A stretch of DNA of 44,932 bases, from IMG/VR virus record IMGVR_UViG_3300028840_001064, positions 1 through 44,932 of that record, one strand, 5' to 3'. Made by a program: the position numbers and the translations under genes. Of this stretch, positions 8,981 through 28,361 are shown piece after piece. The notes beneath the pieces are model-generated. The model searched no databases. It was not told the DNA's origin and saw nothing but the letters and a program-made list of their open reading frames with translations. Each line of letters opens with the position of its first letter. Positions within the stretch are counted from its first letter, which is position 1. The DNA comes from a virus.

Positions 8981-11491
8981 ATGGTCACGAAGGCGACGGC
9001 GGATATGGTCGGGCGGGCTATCCGCCGCGCCGACCGTGCGGTCAAGAGCGCCGTCTCAGCGCTAGGACTCAAGTCTCCCGGGGACCTCTTCGCCCTCTTC
9101 GAGGACTTCGGGCATCGTCTCCAGTCAGAGGTCGCTCTGACGGACTTCCAGATCTCCCACCTTAACGCCCTAAAGCAATCTATCGCCGATCAAGTCTCCC
9201 GCCTCAACGCCGCGCTTCAGGGGGACCTCGCCGGGCGTCTGGGGAAGGCGGCGGCTCTGGGTCGTCGCGCAACTCTCGATGCCGTGAAGGGAGAGGTCTC
9301 CCGGGAGTTCGGCCTGGAGCAAATTGCCGGGCTGAGCCCGAGCGTCCTCTCGACGGCGGCCGAGTTCTCCGCCGACCTCGTCCAGGACGTGAGCCAGAAG
9401 CTCCGGAGCGACATCTCGAAGCTGATCGTCCGGGGCGTAACGACGGGGAAGTCAGGCTCGGAGATCCAGGCGGAACTCCGGAAGCTCCTCGGGCGCAACG
9501 GGGCGAATACCTACTCGAACCGCGACGCGGCGATCTTCCAGACCGAGACGATGCGCGTCTACTCTATGGCGGAGCAAGCCTCCGCCGAGCAACTCGTCGA
9601 GGACGGCGAGGACGTCGTCAAGATGTGGCATTGGAGCGGGAAGTCGCGAGAGAATCACGCGGCGATAGACGGGCAGCTTCGAGAAGTGAAGGAGTTCTTC
9701 ACCGTCCCCGACCCGGGCGACTTCAAGCTCGGGACGAACCCGACCGACTCCTGGAGGGGCGAGCAAGCGCTCTATCCCCGAGACCCTCGCCTGACGGCGG
9801 CGAACTCGGTCTATTGCGGATGCTCGTCCTATACGATCTCCCGCGAGGTCGCCGAGGGGATCGCAGCGAAGCAAGGCTCGAAGACGTTCGAGTATAGGAC
9901 GAAGGGGCGGGGACCGCTGGAGACGAAGCCCGAGAAGGTCAAGCTCCCCGAGGAAGAGAAGAAGGTCGAGGAGAAGAAGGTCGAGCCCGCGAAGGTCGCC
10001 GAGAAGAAGCTGAAGGAGATCGAGGGCGCGGGCCGGGAGCATTGGCTCACTCATAAGCGGCGAGAGATGCAAGGGGCGCGGAATAAGCTCTACGACGCGA
10101 AGAAGGCGGCGAAAGACGCTCCCTACGGGGCTCAGAAGCAAGCGGCCGAAGAGTCGGTCCGGGCAGCCGAGAAGGTTATCAAGCGGCTGGAGCAAACGCT
10201 CGATCTCCACGAGGCGCACGCGAGAAGCCTCGGCTACGGGAAGATGAGCGCCGACCCGAAGAAGGCGCTCGCCGCTCTCTCGAACGAGGACCTCGCGAAG
10301 ATCTTCCAGGGACGGGCGTCCGGGCTCATGATCAGCCCGAAGGGTCGGTATCCGAAGCGGGCCTACGGGAAGCGGACGGTCATCGGCGATGACGGGAAGC
10401 CCCGGCATACCTGGGGGTCTCGGAGCCTGAAGAACGCGAAGGAGGTAGCCGAGTTCAACCTGGAGACGGCGCGGGAACTCTGGATCGAGTTGCTGCGACT
10501 CAACCCCGACGCCCGGCTCGTCGGGCGCGGCCTGAAGATGCCGCCGCTCCGTATGACGGAGAAGGGCGTCCCCACTCTGGAGGCGAACTTCAAGGGGGCG
10601 AAGTTCAAGTTCAATATCCGGAAGGGCTCGTCGGGCGGCTGGTACGAACACGATGGAACTATCGTCGTCCACGGGACGCCCCGGACCCGAGGCCTTCGTC
10701 ACTCCGGCGGCTGGACGTTCGAGCATGAACTCGGGCACGGCTGGCATAACTCGGCGCTGGAGGGAGAGATCGGTTATCACTCCTCGCGGGGCATCCCGTT
10801 CGCGTTTCAAAAGGAGTGGGAGCGGATCGTCGAGAAGGGCGTCGCCTTCGGGAAGAAGCACTCGAAGCTACTCCAGTATGGAGACGAGTTCGCGAAGATC
10901 GTCGACGACGAGGTCGTTAAGGAACTCGTCGAGGGTTACTACAAGTTCGGCGCGGACCGGGCGGCGGCGAAGTGGGGGAGGCGGCGGGCTCGGCTCGCGA
11001 GGAAGCTCGGGGTCCGGCCGGATACGCTCGCGCCGCTCGGGAAGAAGTATATGCATCATAACGCCTACAACGCCCCGCACGCTCGGGCGATCCAGGCGAT
11101 GGTCGACGTCCGGCTGACTGACGAGATGGGCAAGTTGCAGCAAGCCTTCGTCCGGAACGAGATCACGCGGGCGCAGCGCGACCGGGCTATGGCGGTCCTG
11201 GAGCGGGCGAAGACCTACGCGAAGAGCGAGAGCTTTCATTATCGGCTGACGGATCGGAAGGAGTTCTTCGCCGACGGCTTCGCTCACTATATGAACGACG
11301 GCCCGTGCATGAAGAAGCTCTTCCCTGACTTCTACGAGTGGCTCAAGGTCAACGTCTTCGGCGGACGCGAGTTCGAGTCCTTCTACGATCAGATCGCGAA
11401 GGGGCTCTGGGCGGAGGGGACGCCGCTCTGGAAGAGGGCGGACGAGATCGCCCGGCTCATGCTTCCGCCGAGTCAGAGGGCGATGCTATGA
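8981..11491 (+). CDS. MuF-type head protein fused to a predicted zinc metallopeptidase (lethal-factor-like) domain
   Basis: This 836-residue protein is far longer than a plain MuF-family head protein. The N-terminal 300 residues carry the MuF/head-morphogenesis signature: RENHAAIDGQ with His226, then F..P.P, YPRDP and a closing Cys pair at 279 and 281 (YCGCSSY). A Lys/Glu-rich coiled linker covers about 315-420. The C-terminal part has a zinc-peptidase motif FEHELGH (His582, Glu583, His586) and, far downstream, KEFFADGFAHYM (Glu761), the pattern of the third zinc ligand in anthrax lethal factor-type enzymes (HExxH...EFFAEAF). The gap of about 180 residues between the motifs is longer than in lethal factor. 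It is probably a virion-borne effector delivered with DNA; the substrate is unknown. Confidence 0.75.
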   Translation: MVTKATADMVGRAIRRADRAVKSAVSALGLKSPGDLFALFEDFGHRLQSEVALTDFQISHLNALKQSIADQVSRLNAALQGDLAGRLGKAAALGRRATLDAVKGEVSREFGLEQIAGLSPSVLSTAAEFSADLVQDVSQKLRSDISKLIVRGVTTGKSGSEIQAELRKLLGRNGANTYSNRDAAIFQTETMRVYSMAEQASAEQLVEDGEDVVKMWHWSGKSRENHAAIDGQLREVKEFFTVPDPGDFKLGTNPTDSWRGEQALYPRDPRLTAANSVYCGCSSYTISREVAEGIAAKQGSKTFEYRTKGRGPLETKPEKVKLPEEEKKVEEKKVEPAKVAEKKLKEIEGAGREHWLTHKRREMQGARNKLYDAKKAAKDAPYGAQKQAAEESVRAAEKVIKRLEQTLDLHEAHARSLGYGKMSADPKKALAALSNEDLAKIFQGRASGLMISPKGRYPKRAYGKRTVIGDDGKPRHTWGSRSLKNAKEVAEFNLETARELWIELLRLNPDARLVGRGLKMPPLRMTEKGVPTLEANFKGAKFKFNIRKGSSGGWYEHDGTIVVHGTPRTRGLRHSGGWTFEHELGHGWHNSALEGEIGYHSSRGIPFAFQKEWERIVEKGVAFGKKHSKLLQYGDEFAKIVDDEVVKELVEGYYKFGADRAAAKWGRRRARLARKLGVRPDTLAPLGKKYMHHNAYNAPHARAIQAMVDVRLTDEMGKLQQAFVRNEITRAQRDRAMAVLERAKTYAKSESFHYRLTDRKEFFADGFAHYMNDGPCMKKLFPDFYEWLKVNVFGGREFESFYDQIAKGLWAEGTPLWKRADEIARLMLPPSQRAML

Positions 11492-11828: not shown

Positions 11829-12458
11829 ATGGAACCGGACGAGACTCCCGAGAACGAGGCGCAGGCTTTCGCGCCCATCGCAGAGGCCGAGGCGCAAACG
11901 TCTGCGTCGGTCCCCGAGACGTCCTTCGGGCTCCCGGCGTGGACGAAGTGGACCTCCAGGACCGCGATTCTCCCCGACGGGCTGAGCCGGAGGGTCTTCG
12001 CCCAGGCTCCCTTGACGGTCGAGGAAGCGAAGACCTGCGAGCAAGCGGTCCGCTTCTTCCTGAAGGCCCGGAAGGTCCAGTTCCAGGAGACGGAGCGCTA
12101 CGTCGACGAAGAGAGGAAGGGCGGGCCGGTTCGCCGGTTCCGCTCGGTCTTCAGGCCCGCACGAATGGATGACATCGCGAGCCTCGCTTACTGCCTCTCG
12201 AAGCGGACGGGGATGCCGCTCAAGCCCGAGGAGATCCATATCCGGATCACTATGGGCGACGGTCGACGCTACCGGATCACGCCCGACGGCGAGAGCCTGG
12301 GCGTCTGCCTCTTCTGCAAGGCGACGAATATCCCCCTCGAATACCGGAAGGATGGGGTCTACCATACGGATTGCATGACGCGGGCTCTCATGCGTCATCG
12401 ACGTCAGCAAGTCGCGGAGCGCGACGTCGTTCTCGCAAAGGCGAAGGCTGGGGCGTAG
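11829..12458 (+). CDS. hypothetical head-region protein with a Cys/His cluster
   Basis: A 209-residue protein. The ATG at 11829 follows GAGGAGGGGC. An in-frame TTG at 11763 is rejected because it overlaps the promoter and has poor composition. The first 40 residues are acidic and Ala/Thr-rich. A C-terminal CLFC ... H-x3-C cluster (about 167-186) looks like a single zinc site, followed by a basic helix. It lies between the MuF-type gene and the protease-capsid gene and ends in TAG followed at once by a second in-frame TAG. No family was recognised. Confidence 0.6.
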   Translation: MEPDETPENEAQAFAPIAEAEAQTSASVPETSFGLPAWTKWTSRTAILPDGLSRRVFAQAPLTVEEAKTCEQAVRFFLKARKVQFQETERYVDEERKGGPVRRFRSVFRPARMDDIASLAYCLSKRTGMPLKPEEIHIRITMGDGRRYRITPDGESLGVCLFCKATNIPLEYRKDGVYHTDCMTRALMRHRRQQVAERDVVLAKAKAGA

Positions 12459-12476
12459 TAGAGAGGAGCCCACAAC

Positions 12477-14813
12477 CTGAAGATCGCGTTCCTGGAGGCG
12501 AAGCCCGGGGGAAAGCTCCGCGTCCGCATCCTCGAAGAGGGACGTTCGAAGAACGGCTGGAACTGGACGGCCGAGGCGTGCGAGAAGCTCGCCGAGAAGT
12601 CGGTCGGCGCTCCTCTGCGAGCCTTCCAGTTCGGCGGCGGCAAGGTCCGCTCGTTCTTCGATCACGTTCGGGCATGGTGGAACAAGTTCCCGGACGCCGT
12701 CCGCTCGTCTATCCCTGACACATTCCCGCAGAACATCCTCGGCTACGTCGAAGCGGCCGAGTATGACCCGGAGGAGAAGGCGGTCGTCGGGACCGTCGTT
12801 CTCACCGAGGCGGCGCGATGGTTCCATGATCTTGTCGCGACCGGCCTCCGGGTCGGGAAGGTCCCCTTCGGCGTCTCGGTCGACGCTGACGGGGACGAAT
12901 CAACCGAAGTCCCCGACGTCGAGCAAGTCAACGCCATCGACGTCGTCTCGTTCCCTTCCGCTGGGGGAGGGTTCGCCGGAGTCCTGGAGTCCTGGACGTC
13001 TTTTTATAGGGGCATGGAGGATCGGATGAAGCTCTACGAGCGACTGATCAAGATCCTCCCGAGTCGGAAGGAGCAACTCGACAAGTTGCTCCCCGAGGGC
13101 AAGGCGGAAGGCCTGACTCTCGGCTTGCTCGAATCGGAAGCGCCGGAGATCCTGGAGGAGTTCCTCGAAGCCGTCCAGGATCCGGTCGCCGAAGGTGAAG
13201 GGCAGGGAGACGGCGAGGGAGACGGAACCGCCGGGGCCGGTGAAGGCGCGGGGACGGAAGGCGGCGGGACCCTGGAAGGCTGCGGGGGACCGAAGAAGAA
13301 GAAGGAGGCCGGGAAGAAGAAGGGGATCCAGGAGGGCGTCCTCGACGATGGTCTGGGCGATCAGGTCCGGGCCGCGCTGAAGGCGCTCGACACCCAGTTC
13401 CTCGAATCGGCGCTGAAGGAGTCGGGCCTGCCCGAGGACTTCCAGGTCGACATCCGCGAGCGCTTCGCCGACTGCGAGACGCTCGACCGCGAGGCGCTCG
13501 GGAAGGCGATCTCCGGGACGAAGTCGCGGCTCGCGAAGCTCACGCGGGCGCAGGCTGCCCCGACGCCCGTCTACCTGGAGGGCGTCGAGGAAGGCGCGGC
13601 CGGGGAGAAGCTCCGGCAGGCGATGGCGGATGCGCTGAACGACGCGCCGAACGCTCCGGGGATCCGCGAGATCTACGTCATGGCGACGGGCGACTCCATG
13701 CTCCGAGGTCGGCACCACATCGCCGACGTCGTCGCGGGTCGCGCTCGGGGCGGCGTCCTGGAGAGCGTCAACTGGGACGACGTCCCCGAGATGCAGAAGT
13801 ATCTCGCGAAGAAGCCGGGGATCATGGAGGCCGTCACTTGGGCGGGCTTCTCGGTCCTCATGGCGGACGTTCTTCATCAGGAGATGGTCAGGGAGTACCG
13901 TCATTCCGACCTGACTCAGCATCTCCTGATCTCGAAGCAAACCGAGGTCCCGGACTTCCAGATCCACCGCCGGGCGCGTTACGGCGAATACGCCGACCTC
14001 TCCGAGTTGGGCTCGGCCGGAGGCACGGAGGCGCAGACCTACGCGGCCTTCACCGCCTCGCCGTCCGACGAGGAGGTCACGTTCCAGCTTCGCAAGTTCG
14101 GCGACCTGGAGACGCTGACCTGGGAGGCGACGGTCAACGACAACCTTGGAGCCCTGCGGGGGAGCCCGGCGCGGATCGGCCGGGCGGCGCGAAGGACGGA
14201 ATACAAGGCCGGGATGTTGTATATGCTCAACGGGACGAACATCTACACTACCGGCCTTCTCGGGACCGCTGGGCAGGGCAACCTCCAGTCCACGCTCTCC
14301 GAGGCCGAGTTCTGGGCGGCGCGGCAGGGAATGGCGGTCATGACGGATATCGACGATGTCCATCCGATCAGCCTCCGGCCGCGCTACCTCTACCACGGCC
14401 CCGCCCTGACGGAACTCGCCGAGATCCTGACGATGTCGGCGACGCGCCCCGGACCCTATCAGCCCGCGACGGGCTTCGACGGGACGGGCTCGCAGGCGTC
14501 CTCGACTTCGCAGAACGTCCCGGGCGTCGGGCCGACCGAGGTCAACCCGATCCAGCGGCGGAGCATTGTCCCCATCGAGGTTCCCTACTGGGGCGACGGG
14601 ACGAACGACGATCACGCCTGCCTCGTCTGCGACCCCGCCGACTGCCAGCCGCAGGAGATCATCTACCTGCGCGGGCACCGCGAGCCGGAGTTGTGGGTCC
14701 AGGATCTCCCGAACGTCGGGAGCTTCTTTACCGACGACATCATCACCATGAAGATCCGGCATCTCTTCGACGTGGACGTCCTCGACTACCGGGCTTATCA
14801 GGTCCTCACCTGA
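12477..14813 (+). CDS. prohead protease / scaffold / major capsid polyprotein (CTG start)
   Basis: The frame is open for 778 codons. Residues 1-175 match a capsid maturation serine protease: FFDH with His63, GVSVDA with Ser134, and IDVVSFPSAGGG with Asp155 and the Pro-Ala-Gly-Gly-like end. Residues about 225-300 are a Gly/Glu/Lys-rich linker, and about 300-360 a helical scaffold-like segment. Residues about 364-778 are an HK97-fold-type major capsid protein. No in-frame ATG, GTG or TTG occurs before 13014. The first candidate is CTG at 12477, exactly 8 nt after AGGAG (12464-12468). A nested start at 13026 could make scaffold-capsid alone. Shell formation, scaffold removal and maturation would all come from this gene. 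A terminator follows. Confidence 0.8.
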   Translation: MKIAFLEAKPGGKLRVRILEEGRSKNGWNWTAEACEKLAEKSVGAPLRAFQFGGGKVRSFFDHVRAWWNKFPDAVRSSIPDTFPQNILGYVEAAEYDPEEKAVVGTVVLTEAARWFHDLVATGLRVGKVPFGVSVDADGDESTEVPDVEQVNAIDVVSFPSAGGGFAGVLESWTSFYRGMEDRMKLYERLIKILPSRKEQLDKLLPEGKAEGLTLGLLESEAPEILEEFLEAVQDPVAEGEGQGDGEGDGTAGAGEGAGTEGGGTLEGCGGPKKKKEAGKKKGIQEGVLDDGLGDQVRAALKALDTQFLESALKESGLPEDFQVDIRERFADCETLDREALGKAISGTKSRLAKLTRAQAAPTPVYLEGVEEGAAGEKLRQAMADALNDAPNAPGIREIYVMATGDSMLRGRHHIADVVAGRARGGVLESVNWDDVPEMQKYLAKKPGIMEAVTWAGFSVLMADVLHQEMVREYRHSDLTQHLLISKQTEVPDFQIHRRARYGEYADLSELGSAGGTEAQTYAAFTASPSDEEVTFQLRKFGDLETLTWEATVNDNLGALRGSPARIGRAARRTEYKAGMLYMLNGTNIYTTGLLGTAGQGNLQSTLSEAEFWAARQGMAVMTDIDDVHPISLRPRYLYHGPALTELAEILTMSATRPGPYQPATGFDGTGSQASSTSQNVPGVGPTEVNPIQRRSIVPIEVPYWGDGTNDDHACLVCDPADCQPQEIIYLRGHREPELWVQDLPNVGSFFTDDIITMKIRHLFDVDVLDYRAYQVLT
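13016..13028 (+). promoter_or_regulatory. internal ribosome binding site and ATG for a scaffold-capsid product
   Basis: GGAGG (13016-13020) lies 5 nt before an in-frame ATG at 13026, just after the protease domain. Initiation here would give a 595-residue protein with linker, scaffold-like helix and capsid domain but no protease. This resembles the nested start of lambda Nu3 inside C. The ATG at 13014 has its purine run too close. It would fit the need for many more capsid than protease copies. Confidence 0.55.
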
Positions 14814-14841
14814 TCGGCTGAGAAGGGGGAAGAACTCAACC

Positions 14842-14880
14842 GAGGCGGAGACCGGGCCGACCGGCCTCCGCCTCTTTTTT
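14842..14880 (+). terminator. intrinsic terminator after the capsid gene
   Basis: A perfect 9-bp stem, GAGGCGGAG (14842-14850) with CTCCGCCTC (14866-14874), encloses a second CCGG/CCGG pairing and is followed by six T residues (14875-14880). It lies 28 nt after the capsid stop codon and just before the ribosome binding site of the next gene. Partial readthrough would set a high ratio of capsid to connector and tail proteins. Confidence 0.88.
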
Positions 14881-14892
14881 CAGGAGGTCGAG

Positions 14893-15168
14893 ATGGGCAG
14901 TCCAGGAAAGCCCGAACGCTTCACGGCGAACGGAGCGCTTTCGCAAACGCGACGGGTCGCCATCGACTCGATCACGCTCTGCGCGGGAAGCGACGCGGCG
15001 ACGGTCACGGTGAAGGAGGGCGGCTCGGGCGGGACGGTTATCTGGGAGGGGCGCGTCGCGACGGCGAACGACTCGATCCCGTTTCCATTCCCGCAGGGGA
15101 TGGCGGTCACGGCCGCTTATATCACCCTGACGGGGACGAGCCCGAACGCTACCGTCGTCTATAGGTAA
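14893..15168 (+). CDS. small beta-rich structural protein (decoration-type candidate)
   Basis: A 91-residue protein with short alternating beta segments, many Thr/Gly/Ala/Val, no Lys/Glu helices and one Cys. Phage genomes often carry such small beta-rich proteins directly after the capsid gene, where they act as head decoration or stabilising proteins. That role here comes from position and composition only. The ATG is 6 nt after CAGGAGG, immediately beyond the terminator. Confidence 0.5.
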   Translation: MGSPGKPERFTANGALSQTRRVAIDSITLCAGSDAATVTVKEGGSGGTVIWEGRVATANDSIPFPFPQGMAVTAAYITLTGTSPNATVVYR

Positions 15169-23982: not shown

Positions 23983-24903
23983 ATGGCCTTCGACGCCGAC
24001 CCCCGGATCGTCTACGACTCGCCCGACCTGACGGATCCCTCCTTCGAGGCGAACGCCGACGGCTCGATCATCTTCCCCGACTTCCCGAACCGCTTCCTCG
24101 GAGGGAGCGACTTGATCGAGTATGACGACGCTCAATTCTTCCAGCGGGGCGCGAACGACGCGGGGGGCCAGTCGGCGTATTTTAAGAAGGTCACGGCCTC
24201 GGGAGCCTCGGGCGTCGGGCTCGGAAATCATCACCTGGAGAAGGACGGGAAGATCTGGCTTCCTCCTGCGGATCAGAAGATCGGCTTCCTCGCCGTCGGC
24301 CGGGCGTCGCAGGCTGGCGCGATGTTCGGGCTCCGGCTCGTCGTTCGGAACTCTGCCTGGGGGACGCTCTCACTTCAACCGGGATGGCATACCTTCGCGC
24401 AGGCGAATACCTGGGAGGTCATGACGAACGTCTTCGACCGGACGGACAACGCCGACTCGTATCAGATCGAGGCGGTCATGGTCCCCTATACCGGCGGAGG
24501 CGTTGAATACTGGATCGATCAGATCCAGATCGGGCGCGTCCTCGACTTCGACAACCGAGGGATCCAGCGCTACCGGCCGGAAGACATCGGGCGCTTCGCG
24601 AGCGATCACGGCTACGGGTCTTTTCAGAGCGTCGAGATCGCGAAGCCTTACTCGCGAGTCCAGGCTCGCTTCGGGCGCATCGGCGAGGCCGTCGACCTCG
24701 ACGCGGAGATCCGCGACTTCCACAAATACGCCTTGACCGGCGAGCCGTTCTCCTTCTGGGCGGACCGCTCCGCTTCTTCGAACGCCGAGCATCACTATCG
24801 GGATTGCGTTCTGCGCGGACGGGTCCGGTATCAATATCAACCGGGATATCCCGCCTACGTCTACGAGATCGACTTCGACGCCCCGCTGGAGTTCCGGGCG
24901 TGA
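23983..24903 (+). CDS. distal-tail-like protein with a carbohydrate-binding-like domain (copy 2)
   Basis: A 306-residue paralogue of the preceding protein. It has LTDPSFEANADGS near residue 15, a closing strand EYWIDQIQIGRVLDFD around 180, and a C-terminal half with EPFSFWADRSAS and YEIDFDAPLEF that parallels FAFWRDADDW and LDLEFECLE of copy 1. Similarity is visible by eye but low, so duplication is old or diverging fast. In-frame sequence back to 23437 is a shadow of the first copy. Its stop overlaps the GTG of the hub gene. Probable role: tail tip and receptor or glycan contact. Confidence 0.6.
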   Translation: MAFDADPRIVYDSPDLTDPSFEANADGSIIFPDFPNRFLGGSDLIEYDDAQFFQRGANDAGGQSAYFKKVTASGASGVGLGNHHLEKDGKIWLPPADQKIGFLAVGRASQAGAMFGLRLVVRNSAWGTLSLQPGWHTFAQANTWEVMTNVFDRTDNADSYQIEAVMVPYTGGGVEYWIDQIQIGRVLDFDNRGIQRYRPEDIGRFASDHGYGSFQSVEIAKPYSRVQARFGRIGEAVDLDAEIRDFHKYALTGEPFSFWADRSASSNAEHHYRDCVLRGRVRYQYQPGYPAYVYEIDFDAPLEFRA

Positions 24904-27900
24904 GTCTCTACGAAGAGAAGCGGGATGCCCGCTCGAAGCGGACGGTCTGGCTCCTGGACCTCCTCGGGGAGACCTTCGTCTCGCGGGGAGGCTACGACTC
25001 GACCTCGACTCCAGGCCTGCGGATCCGGAATACGCTCCAGGCAGAGATCGATCTCGCGAGCGGGAAGCTCGACCTCGACGAGATCGAGGCGGAGCTTCTC
25101 GACCGTGACGGGTCGGTCGGCTCCTGGCTCGCCGAGAACGATGCGACGCTCCGGGGCGCAGCGGCGACCCTCCGTTACGGCTTCGTCGGCGTTCCTGAGA
25201 CGCAGTTCCGGAGTCTGACGCTCTACGTCGAGGACTGGGGGCAGGGCGCGAAGGGAGCATTCTCGATCCTACTGAGGACGGCGCTCTCCTTCCTGGACCG
25301 GCCGCTCTTCGAAGACTTCGGAACGGGGAACGAATACGGGCTCGTCGCGAACCTCGCCCCGGAGGGGATGGAGATCCGGCTGAAGGGCAAGGTCGACGAG
25401 GAGCCGCAACTCTGGAGGGATACCGGCTACCTCCTCCTTCAGGACTCGGAGACGCACGAGATCGAGCTTGCGTCATATACCGCGCTCGCACCTTACGGGA
25501 CCGAGGAGACGAGAGTCACGCTCTCGGGAAGGCGACTCTTCGGAACGGGCGCGACGACGAAGACGTTCGTCGTGAATACGACGCAGGTCTCCCAGGCCTG
25601 GGCGTTCCGGGATGATCCGATCTCAGTCTTCCTCAGACTCGCGACGACGACGGACGACGGCTCGAACGGAGTCGACGACGCCGGAGACGGCGACGGCCTC
25701 GGGGATAAGGTCCCCGCGTCTTCAATCGACCGCGACGCGCTCGTCGACATCCGAGACTCTCGGCTTCTGGACGAGACGGGTCAACCCCGGGACGCCCTCT
25801 ATATCGAGACGGGGGAGATCGAGTCTCTCCTGGGATACTTCGAAGAGGAGTTCCTCTGCCTCGGCTTCCGACTCTCCTCGACGGCCGAGGGGAAGCTCAC
25901 CCTTCGGCGCTTCGGAGGTCTCGGGAAGCAACCCGATGACTCGACGGCCTCGCGGCAGAATCTCGCCCGACTGACGGAGACGCCGCAGGCCTCCGAAGAC
26001 GTCTCGAACAAGTTCGCACTCGACGATAAGAAGATCGTCCCGTTCAAGCGGCGCTATCCGGACGCCGAGAATAACGCCCGCTGGGAGTACGACTACCATC
26101 CCGCGACGGGCGAATACCTCTCGGCGGTCAATTACTCCGACCCGCGCTCGGAGGAGCGCTACGGGAAGGCGAAGCTCCGGTCGATCACGTCCCGAGGACT
26201 GCGCGGTCGGGGGGGACGCCCCTTCCAGCTTCCCGATCTCGGCTGGGATCGCTACCTGACGCGACGCGGCCCCGAGTACGTGATCGAACTCGGAAACCCC
26301 TCGCAGGCTTTCAATATGCCGGGCTTCGTCGCGCTCCAGGATAAGGAGCCCGGCGACCTCCTGACGTTCGAGCATCCGGCTCGCTTCGATCTGACCTCGG
26401 GCTTGATCGGGCTCTCGGAGCGCGTTCATCTCGTCGAGGCCGTCGATCACCGGCCGAGCAAGGGGCAGGTCGGGCTCCGGATGCGTGAACGTCTGCGCGT
26501 CGGGCGTCCCGTCCACGTCGGGCGGGACCCGTACTATACGCAGACCCCGCTCCTCAAGGCGAACTTTACTCTCCTCGGGGGCGAGGAGTACGAAGACGCA
26601 GAGGGCGAGACCTGGGAGACGGTCCTCAAGAATACTCTCTACGGGGCGACGAACTCGCAGGGGACCGTCTACGGATGGGTCTCGCCGTCAGGCCTGGACT
26701 CCCGCAACCGGAACGAGCCGCTCAGCCCGGACGAACGCTACGACTCCTTCATCTTCTACGATAACGACGGCGCGGCGCAGACCTTCCGGGTCAAGGTCGA
26801 AGAGGAGAAGCTCTACTGGGTCGAGGTCGGCGTCGGCGATCCCTGGAATCCGCAACTCAATACGATTCGGGTCAACGGCTTCGATCTCCTTCTGGACGAA
26901 GAGACGACGGCGCTCTCCTTCCGGACGGAGCGAGCGCTCGTCGGGCCGAAGAAGGTCGGCTCCGACTGGGTCCTCGACTTCGAGATTGGCGGCGGAGACT
27001 ATAACGTCGGCGTCTCGTATGGGGGCATCTTTACCTGCGTGAACTATATCCAGGTCGACGAGGTCGTCCCCGACGCAGGCTTCGAGCCTCTCTACCGGCT
27101 CAACCTCGGGCCGACGGTCGACCCTTACGGCTGGAACGCCGTCGCGGAGAAGGAGGACGACTGGAAGAACGTCGATCACCTGGGGGAATATCCGCTCCCC
27201 CGGCTTTCTCTGCGAGACACTCATAAGGCCGGATGGCTCTCGCTCCCGCAGCCCGTCCTCTATATCAACCGGGACTCGGGCTCGTCTCCTTCGGAGCGCT
27301 TCGACTCCTTCGTCTACGCCCCGAACCGCTCCGGCGGAGTGAATAAAGACGGGCCGATCTTCCGGCTGACGACTGGGCGGCGCGATTGGTATCTCGTCGA
27401 GGTCTGCGTCGGCGACGCAACGGCGGCGAAGATCGCCTCGGTCTCGATCAAGGATCCGGCGCGTCGGGGCTCCGCCTACGATACGCGGATCTTCATCGAC
27501 AACCGGACGGAGGGGGGAGCGTGGACGACGCGAGCCGTTCCTTACTTCGCCGAGAACGGCTTCATCGATCTCATGGTCGGAGGCCGGAACGCGCAGACCG
27601 TCCCCTTCTCGAATGACGGCTATACGCCGGTCGCCTGGGTCCGGGTCTGGGGACATACTCCGAAGCAAGTCTGGGCGCTCAACCTGCGGCAGCATGACGC
27701 TACGAAGCATGACGAGACCGACCCCGTTCACCCGGGATATGGGCGATGGTTGCATTACTACGCTTACGACGCGGGGCGCGGCTTCGGGGCGTTGACCTTC
27801 CCCTCGACGAACGCCTCGCGCTGCCGGAAGGACGACCGCCTGCGGACGATGGGCTATCGCTGGGATTCGTTTATCGGGCTCGTTCACGACTCAGGGGCCG

Positions 27901-28361
27901 GAGGCGTCCCGACCGAGACGCTCGACCTTCGCGTTGACGTCCCGAACGGGACCTATCGCGTCGTCTGCGGGATGGCGGATATCTACTTTATCGAGTGGAA
28001 CGCGCTCTTCGTCGACGGAGGCGAAGGCCTGATCCCGATGTGGAAGCTCCAGAACTATCAAGCGGCGGGTCACTCCGGCTATTCCGATCCGACGGTGATC
28101 GAGGACGTCCCGGCGTCGCTCCATACGCCGACGGTCTCGCCGTTCGTTCGCGCCGAGGTCGGCGTGAAGGTGACTCAGGGCTACCTCCGCTTTCAACTCG
28201 GCGACGGGTCGACGGATGCCGGAAGCTCGCGGCTCGGCTGGATCGTGATCGAGCAACGCGACTATAACCTCGCCGACGAAGCGCGGCGGCAGTATGGGCA
28301 CATTAGCCCCGACGCTGGCGTCTTCGCAGACGGCGGCGCAGCCTATGATATGGGGGTCTGA
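24900..28361 (+). CDS. large tail hub/fibre protein with three related beta-sandwich domains
   Basis: A 1153-residue protein from a GTG overlapping the preceding stop; the in-frame stretch back to 24804 is a shadow. Residues 1-550 resemble a siphovirus tail-tip/hub protein, with many short strands and a late VHLVEAVDHRPSKGQVGLRMRE segment. Three successive domains follow at about 555-727, 731-920 and 921-1124. They share YDSF/FDSF/WDSF (about 613, 800, 987), VGD in the first two, a W-containing strand and a GGGxY-, VGGR- or LGDG-type turn. These look like malectin/galactose-binding-like domains and probably bind glycans on the host surface. The same domain occurs once in the protein at 16787. 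Confidence 0.65.
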   Translation: MSLYEEKRDARSKRTVWLLDLLGETFVSRGGYDSTSTPGLRIRNTLQAEIDLASGKLDLDEIEAELLDRDGSVGSWLAENDATLRGAAATLRYGFVGVPETQFRSLTLYVEDWGQGAKGAFSILLRTALSFLDRPLFEDFGTGNEYGLVANLAPEGMEIRLKGKVDEEPQLWRDTGYLLLQDSETHEIELASYTALAPYGTEETRVTLSGRRLFGTGATTKTFVVNTTQVSQAWAFRDDPISVFLRLATTTDDGSNGVDDAGDGDGLGDKVPASSIDRDALVDIRDSRLLDETGQPRDALYIETGEIESLLGYFEEEFLCLGFRLSSTAEGKLTLRRFGGLGKQPDDSTASRQNLARLTETPQASEDVSNKFALDDKKIVPFKRRYPDAENNARWEYDYHPATGEYLSAVNYSDPRSEERYGKAKLRSITSRGLRGRGGRPFQLPDLGWDRYLTRRGPEYVIELGNPSQAFNMPGFVALQDKEPGDLLTFEHPARFDLTSGLIGLSERVHLVEAVDHRPSKGQVGLRMRERLRVGRPVHVGRDPYYTQTPLLKANFTLLGGEEYEDAEGETWETVLKNTLYGATNSQGTVYGWVSPSGLDSRNRNEPLSPDERYDSFIFYDNDGAAQTFRVKVEEEKLYWVEVGVGDPWNPQLNTIRVNGFDLLLDEETTALSFRTERALVGPKKVGSDWVLDFEIGGGDYNVGVSYGGIFTCVNYIQVDEVVPDAGFEPLYRLNLGPTVDPYGWNAVAEKEDDWKNVDHLGEYPLPRLSLRDTHKAGWLSLPQPVLYINRDSGSSPSERFDSFVYAPNRSGGVNKDGPIFRLTTGRRDWYLVEVCVGDATAAKIASVSIKDPARRGSAYDTRIFIDNRTEGGAWTTRAVPYFAENGFIDLMVGGRNAQTVPFSNDGYTPVAWVRVWGHTPKQVWALNLRQHDATKHDETDPVHPGYGRWLHYYAYDAGRGFGALTFPSTNASRCRKDDRLRTMGYRWDSFIGLVHDSGAGGVPTETLDLRVDVPNGTYRVVCGMADIYFIEWNALFVDGGEGLIPMWKLQNYQAAGHSGYSDPTVIEDVPASLHTPTVSPFVRAEVGVKVTQGYLRFQLGDGSTDAGSSRLGWIVIEQRDYNLADEARRQYGHISPDAGVFADGGAAYDMGV

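Follow-up and report, generated by a model that had tools for sequence, protein, structure and literature searches.

A probable CTG start codon and a conserved putative internal start in the protease-scaffold-capsid gene of a tailed-phage family

In a 44,932-base IMG/VR virus record with 65% GC, analysed here over its whole length and referred to as the window, a capsid-maturation protease and a major capsid protein appear to share one open reading frame that lacks a canonical start codon where one would be expected, and the question is where translation of this frame begins. The question has a second side. Capsid subunits are required by the hundred in each capsid, proteases in far smaller number, so that a gene which fuses the two one to one is a puzzle. 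Two tandem TAG codons (12456-12458 and 12459-12461) close the capsid frame on its upstream side, and the first ATG, GTG or TTG that follows them in frame is the ATG at 13014, exactly as the initial annotation had it at every coordinate. That annotation proposed that the gene starts instead at a CTG at 12477, and the AGGAG motif of a Shine-Dalgarno sequence (SD) is indeed found 8 nt before this codon. The features of the region are collected in Table 1.

Table 1. Features of the protease-scaffold-capsid region of the window; starts and products are predicted.
Feature	Position	Strand	Remarks
Upstream gene, 209 aa, without assigned function	11829..12458	+	Ends in TAG, followed by a second in-frame TAG; SD GGAGGGG before ATG 11829 (-12.5 kcal/mol); no Pfam or PHROG match
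AGGAG SD	12464..12468	+	8 nt (12469-12476) to the CTG; duplex energy -8.3 kcal/mol
CTG at which the precursor is proposed to start	12477..12479	+	Aligns with the L098 ATG
Precursor of protease, scaffold and capsid protein, 778 aa, ending in TGA	12477..14813	+	Matches the PHROG families for head maturation protease and for major head/protease, and Phage_capsid_4 in Pfam
Capsid-maturation protease domain	12477..13025	+	H63 (12663-12665), S134 (12876-12878), D155 (12939-12941)
First in-frame ATG, an improbable start	13014..13016	+	Lacks a normally spaced SD and is not conserved
GGAGG SD of the internal start	13016..13020	+	5 nt before ATG 13026; -9.3 kcal/mol, stronger than at any other in-frame start codon of the ORF
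Nested ORF, scaffold (delta-like) and major capsid protein, 595 aa	13026..14813	+	Start codon conserved in the family
HK97-fold major capsid domain, Phage_capsid_4, residues 458-773	13848..14795	+	Pfam PF25209, E 5e-25

The sequence upstream of 13014, in which the initial annotation saw a protease domain, is coding by composition. Its codon-position GC (0.66/0.46/0.82 over 12477-13013) agrees with that of clear genes of the window, and its codon score is +0.22 in the capsid frame vs -0.1 to -0.7 in the five other frames. The match of residues 6-173 to the head maturation protease of PHROG is weak (E 3e-4 to 8e-6). H63 is invariant in five close sequences (alignment A3); across the 42 sequences of alignment A4, G132 and S134 never vary, and D155 hardly does. 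Residues 1-183 were modelled with AlphaFold (pLDDT 82), and Foldseek places the model next to phage capsid maturation proteases in BFVD (E 9e-12). In the PDB the top match is pUL26N of pseudorabies virus (probability 0.99), a match that has to be called moderate because of its E value of 4e-3 and TM of 0.47. Homology, predicted fold and conserved residues all bear out that the region encodes a real capsid-maturation protease, apparently of the herpes-assemblin-like type, with the corresponding fold in the model and with a His, a Ser and a third residue that are predicted to be catalytic. The domain appears to be absent from Pfam, since none of the 42 family protease domains in A4 gives a convincing match there. 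Protease (fold at residues 1-170) and HK97-fold capsid protein (Phage_capsid_4 at 458-773) lie in one ORF.

Alignment queries recovered relatives of this gene. None came from scanning IMG/VR with the capsid protein, the terminase or the portal protein as single queries, nor from a DNA-level search against phages. The homology of these relatives to the window protein begins at residue 4-11 and runs along the whole protein, and the model of the protease has its first core strand at residue 12; translation therefore has to start before about 12510, within a few codons of 12477. In the closest relative, contig IMGVR_UViG_3300009788_000125 (L098), the protease-capsid protein is 40% identical over residues 5-775 and the surrounding genes are syntenic with those of the window (head morphogenesis protein 43%, upstream gene 29%, four downstream genes 32-37%). 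The L098 gene opens with ATG-AAG-TTC (M-K-F), preceded by an SD-like sequence, at the very column where the window reads CTG-AAG-ATC (L-K-I). A related phage with an ATG at another place in this frame would have spoken against the CTG, and was looked for; the ATG of L098 is at the same place. In four further relatives with the same compact arrangement (L006, L007, L009 and L010), an ATG or GTG start is found within about 3 codons of the CTG. The homologue of the upstream gene in L098 (1817-2434, 29% over 209 aa) terminates at a TAA of its own, 27 nt upstream of the ATG. Because the ATG of L098 occupies the same position, and its upstream TAA argues against stop readthrough, I regard CTG 12477 as the best candidate start, on which the initial annotation was probably right, and as a likely descendant of an ATG at this position. 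The syntenic head morphogenesis (Mu F-like) protein of the window (8981-11491) is, at 836 aa, much longer than its homologue in L098, which has 468 aa only; its long C-terminal extension carries a HELGHGWH metallopeptidase-like motif and gives no significant match in Pfam.

As sole proof of the start, the SD in front of the CTG was rejected. On the + strand, 6.8% of CTG triplets follow an SD as strong as this one, which makes it weak evidence by itself, and the exact pattern AGGAG-N8-CTG has 7 occurrences vs 2.1 expected. The case for CTG 12477, as a predicted start, is carried by its position relative to the homologues and not by the SD; what the locus offers is the two together, a normally spaced SD and a homologous start codon at the same position. 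CTG starts are rare in phages and not new, one CTG-started ORF having been reported by annotation in phiB124-14 (PMC3338817). Among the window genes surveyed, no other lacks a canonical start, after a doubtful case at 24507-28361 was resolved. The gene is also alone in its family, among the members seen, in starting with CTG: no gene without a canonical start is present among about 200 other family ORFs with a complete 5' end, and two that were flagged look like errors of the anchor motif.

This isolation could also mean that the CTG arose in sequencing or assembly or represents a minority variant, and that the true codon at 12477 is ATG (or GTG or TTG) with all else unchanged. L098 has its ATG there, one base different, and the CTG is known from a single IMG/VR virus record; a search for a second copy of the start region found none. 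However, a random error that hits exactly the start codon is improbable when set against the known low natural rate of CTG starts, and the remaining frame is intact with its SD in place, so I consider an error unlikely. Neither do I find a convincing substitute for CTG 12477 among the neighbouring codons. ATC 12483 and CTG 12492 are the only further near-cognate codons before the conserved core, and both precede its first strand in the model; yet both are without a well-placed SD, and the alignment with the ATG of L098 and the AGGAG at normal spacing coincide at CTG 12477 only, which leaves them a very small chance.

Two other explanations would dispense with a start codon in this place altogether. 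In the window and in L098 alike, the upstream ORF is in frame with the protease-capsid ORF, and readthrough of TAG-TAG could thus make the protease. I rejected this possibility, which seems scarcely credible to me: there are two stops in tandem, L098 has the TAA and then its own ATG with an SD-like sequence, no tRNA, and hence no suppressor tRNA, was found in the window, and TAG, TGA and TAA all serve as normal stops in the genes of the window. With the canonical start codon lost, it could further be supposed that the window phage has ceased to translate the protease region and makes the scaffold-capsid form alone. Against this, the frame is unbroken over 179 codons, its codon usage is phage-like, the H, S and D residues are intact and the SD is retained, and no second protease gene came to notice in a casual look at the window; this explanation is very improbable as well. 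Initiation at CTG 12477 remains the reading I prefer.

With respect to the alternative start at ATG 13014, the initial annotation has to be amended. It missed that another ATG, at 13026 and only four codons further on, has both a strong SD and conservation on its side. A start at ATG 13026 would omit the protease and retain scaffold and capsid; it is a predicted in-frame internal start with its own SD past the protease domain. Among the in-frame ATGs listed, this SD is the strongest, in the window as well as in eight relatives. In a family sample of 47 divergent members, drawn from viruses as well as from several bacterial phyla, the column at the protease/scaffold junction, after a P[SG]AGG motif, has ATG in 44; the others are a GTG with GGAGG in L049 and an ATG that is 1-2 residues off in L019 and L050. 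The mean SD energy at the internal start of these 47 sequences is -7.5 to -7.8 kcal/mol vs -2.4 at other in-frame ATGs (p=1.6e-8), or -7.8 vs -2.1 when the Mets of the capsid domain are taken for comparison, and the best SD of the ORF is found at the internal start in 29 of them, vs 3.6 expected. An out-of-sample set of 79 further independent ORFs, fetched later and freed of three loci that duplicated earlier contigs, gives the same picture, with an SD energy of -7.2 vs -2.3 (p=8e-14) and the best SD of the ORF at the internal start in 43 cases vs 9.5 expected. A predicted internal start with a strong SD is conserved at the protease/scaffold junction across the family, which is a more general result than the CTG start.

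Alternatively, the conserved Met may be a structural residue, or part of a site at which the protease cleaves itself, and not a start. Conservation of a residue where two domains meet would be compatible with a processing site, and the residues upstream of the Met partly dictate an SD-like sequence, as encoded Glu-Glu or Gln-Glu yield SD-like codons by themselves. The SD of the window itself is not above synonymous expectation (p=0.77), because its encoded residues already force it. Family-wide, however, the SD is stronger than synonymous codon choice predicts (-7.8 vs -6.2, p=2e-5), and the Mets of the capsid domain are without such an excess. Rare AGG codons create the SD in L075 and L077, which have AAGGAGG at the internal start although their residues give no SD (p=0.003 each); in L077, the ORF uses AGG for arginine just twice, and these two codons build the SD. 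Moreover, the internal start of L098 (L098:3041) is a GTG with GGAGGAG 5 nt upstream, and since this codon, like the GTG of L049, encodes Val in the fusion protein, it is the start codon that is conserved rather than Met. These patterns suggest that the internal start is under selection at the nucleotide level, beyond what the residues alone would cause, and a purely structural or cleavage-related role of the Met seems improbable.

The reading that I favour, with a probability of about 0.78, is that one gene gives rise to two nested products, from CTG 12477 and from ATG 13026. Initiation at the CTG would produce a 778-residue precursor composed of protease, scaffold (delta-like) and HK97-fold capsid, while initiation at the ATG, to which conservation and SD point, would produce a 595-residue scaffold-capsid protein without protease. 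A CTG codon initiates poorly, and combined with a strong internal SD this start would be expected to give few protease-bearing chains amid many capsid precursors. As the scaffold-capsid part is common to both, long and short chains could co-assemble, and the protease would then remove itself and the scaffold. The SD of the protease start is weaker than that of the internal start in 9 of the 9 genes compared. In the window the two are nearly equal (-8.3 at the CTG vs -9.3 at ATG 13026), and the predicted imbalance therefore rests on the CTG codon itself. In L098 the order of codon strength is reversed, with ATG at the protease start and the weaker GTG at the internal start, for which reason the ratio of protease to capsid is something that I infer. 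Around CTG 12477 and ATG 13026 there is no signal of RNA structure (z 0.8 and -1.0), and a consensus scan of 12300-15000 gave no match to a sigma70-like promoter, so that neither offers another route to the short form. Just past the capsid gene, at 14835-14880, a T run comes after a GC-rich inverted repeat, an arrangement that by eye resembles a terminator; it was not reported by the consensus scan.

For the protease-scaffold-capsid fusion family, which is widespread among tailed phages, I think it fairly probable that the ratio is set by two nested starts, a weak one upstream and a strong one inside, the upstream one being further weakened here by the change from ATG to CTG. A conserved internal start would answer the stoichiometry puzzle of the fused gene, and as prophages of many cultured hosts, among them Aromatoleum and Acidovorax (L052 and L039), carry members of the family, the idea is testable there. 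There are also consequences for annotation. The warning that start-restricted ORF calling would lose the protease holds, yet what such a caller yields for the window, the capsid form alone, is itself predicted to be a genuine product, namely the scaffold-capsid protein. In the relatives, conversely, annotation of the longest ORF hides the short product, which is probably the more abundant one. The window further suggests that a non-canonical start can occur on a presumably essential structural gene, where it is recoverable by comparison only.

Several elements of this arrangement are known already, namely protease-scaffold-capsid fusions, nested protease and scaffold starts, and in-frame internal starts in phage genes. 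In the literature that could be searched, with incomplete coverage that is thin for subscription journals, I found nothing on an internal start in protease-capsid fusions and no description of its combination with a fused capsid protein across a family. The capsid part of the window protein, and no other part, matches both NCBIfam models of the prohead protease/major capsid protein fusion protein, NF045541 and NF045540, with scores far under their curated cut-offs. With a score of 102 bits against a curated cut-off of 525 for NF045541, reached over residues 445-773 only, the window protein is by its architecture a distant relative of NF045541 and not a member. Pseudomonas phage MD8 combines a protease, a scaffold and an HK97-fold capsid protein in gp5 (PMC8508860); the text of that paper is without the terms 'start codon', 'internal', 'ribosome' and 'stoichiometr'. 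MD8 and F10 have a ClpP-like protease, in contrast to the herpes-assemblin-like protease of the window. I considered gp5 of Pseudomonas phage F10 (L080:4387-6468) as a parallel from the ClpP-type fusions, and set it aside as not clearly comparable: its strongest in-frame SD, AAGGAGGAG (-11.4), precedes ATG 185 inside the protease domain, near its end, and may be a parallel or chance.

The lambda genes C and Nu3, annotated at 119-1438 and 833-1438 of L081, resemble the window in having an N-terminal protease, a nested in-frame start and a common C-terminal part. They differ in that the lambda capsid protein is encoded by a separate gene, whereas in the window the capsid would be part of both products, and in that lambda C has a strong SD and an ATG start (-12.0) where the window has CTG. 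Lambda also served as a control of the method, in which the annotated Nu3 start ranks second by SD among 17 in-frame ATGs. The strongest internal SD of lambda C is at L081:1043 (genome 5342), 70 codons past the annotated Nu3 start. The principle proposed here is established for another phage gene with another purpose, that of two-polypeptide endolysins, which gives two in-frame nested products by means of an internal SD and start (PMC9430671).

With the two proposed products of the window, the protease gene I of phage Mu and the scaffold gene Z nested in frame within it may be compared, as may UL26 and UL26.5 of the herpesviruses, which are 3'-coterminal and encode protease-scaffold and scaffold only. 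The herpesvirus pair is similar to the window both in its nested logic and in the fold of the protease, for which pUL26N is the top match in the PDB. UL26.5, however, has its own promoter, whereas in the window an internal ribosome-binding site is predicted to give rise to the short form, and the scaffold is fused to the capsid protein.
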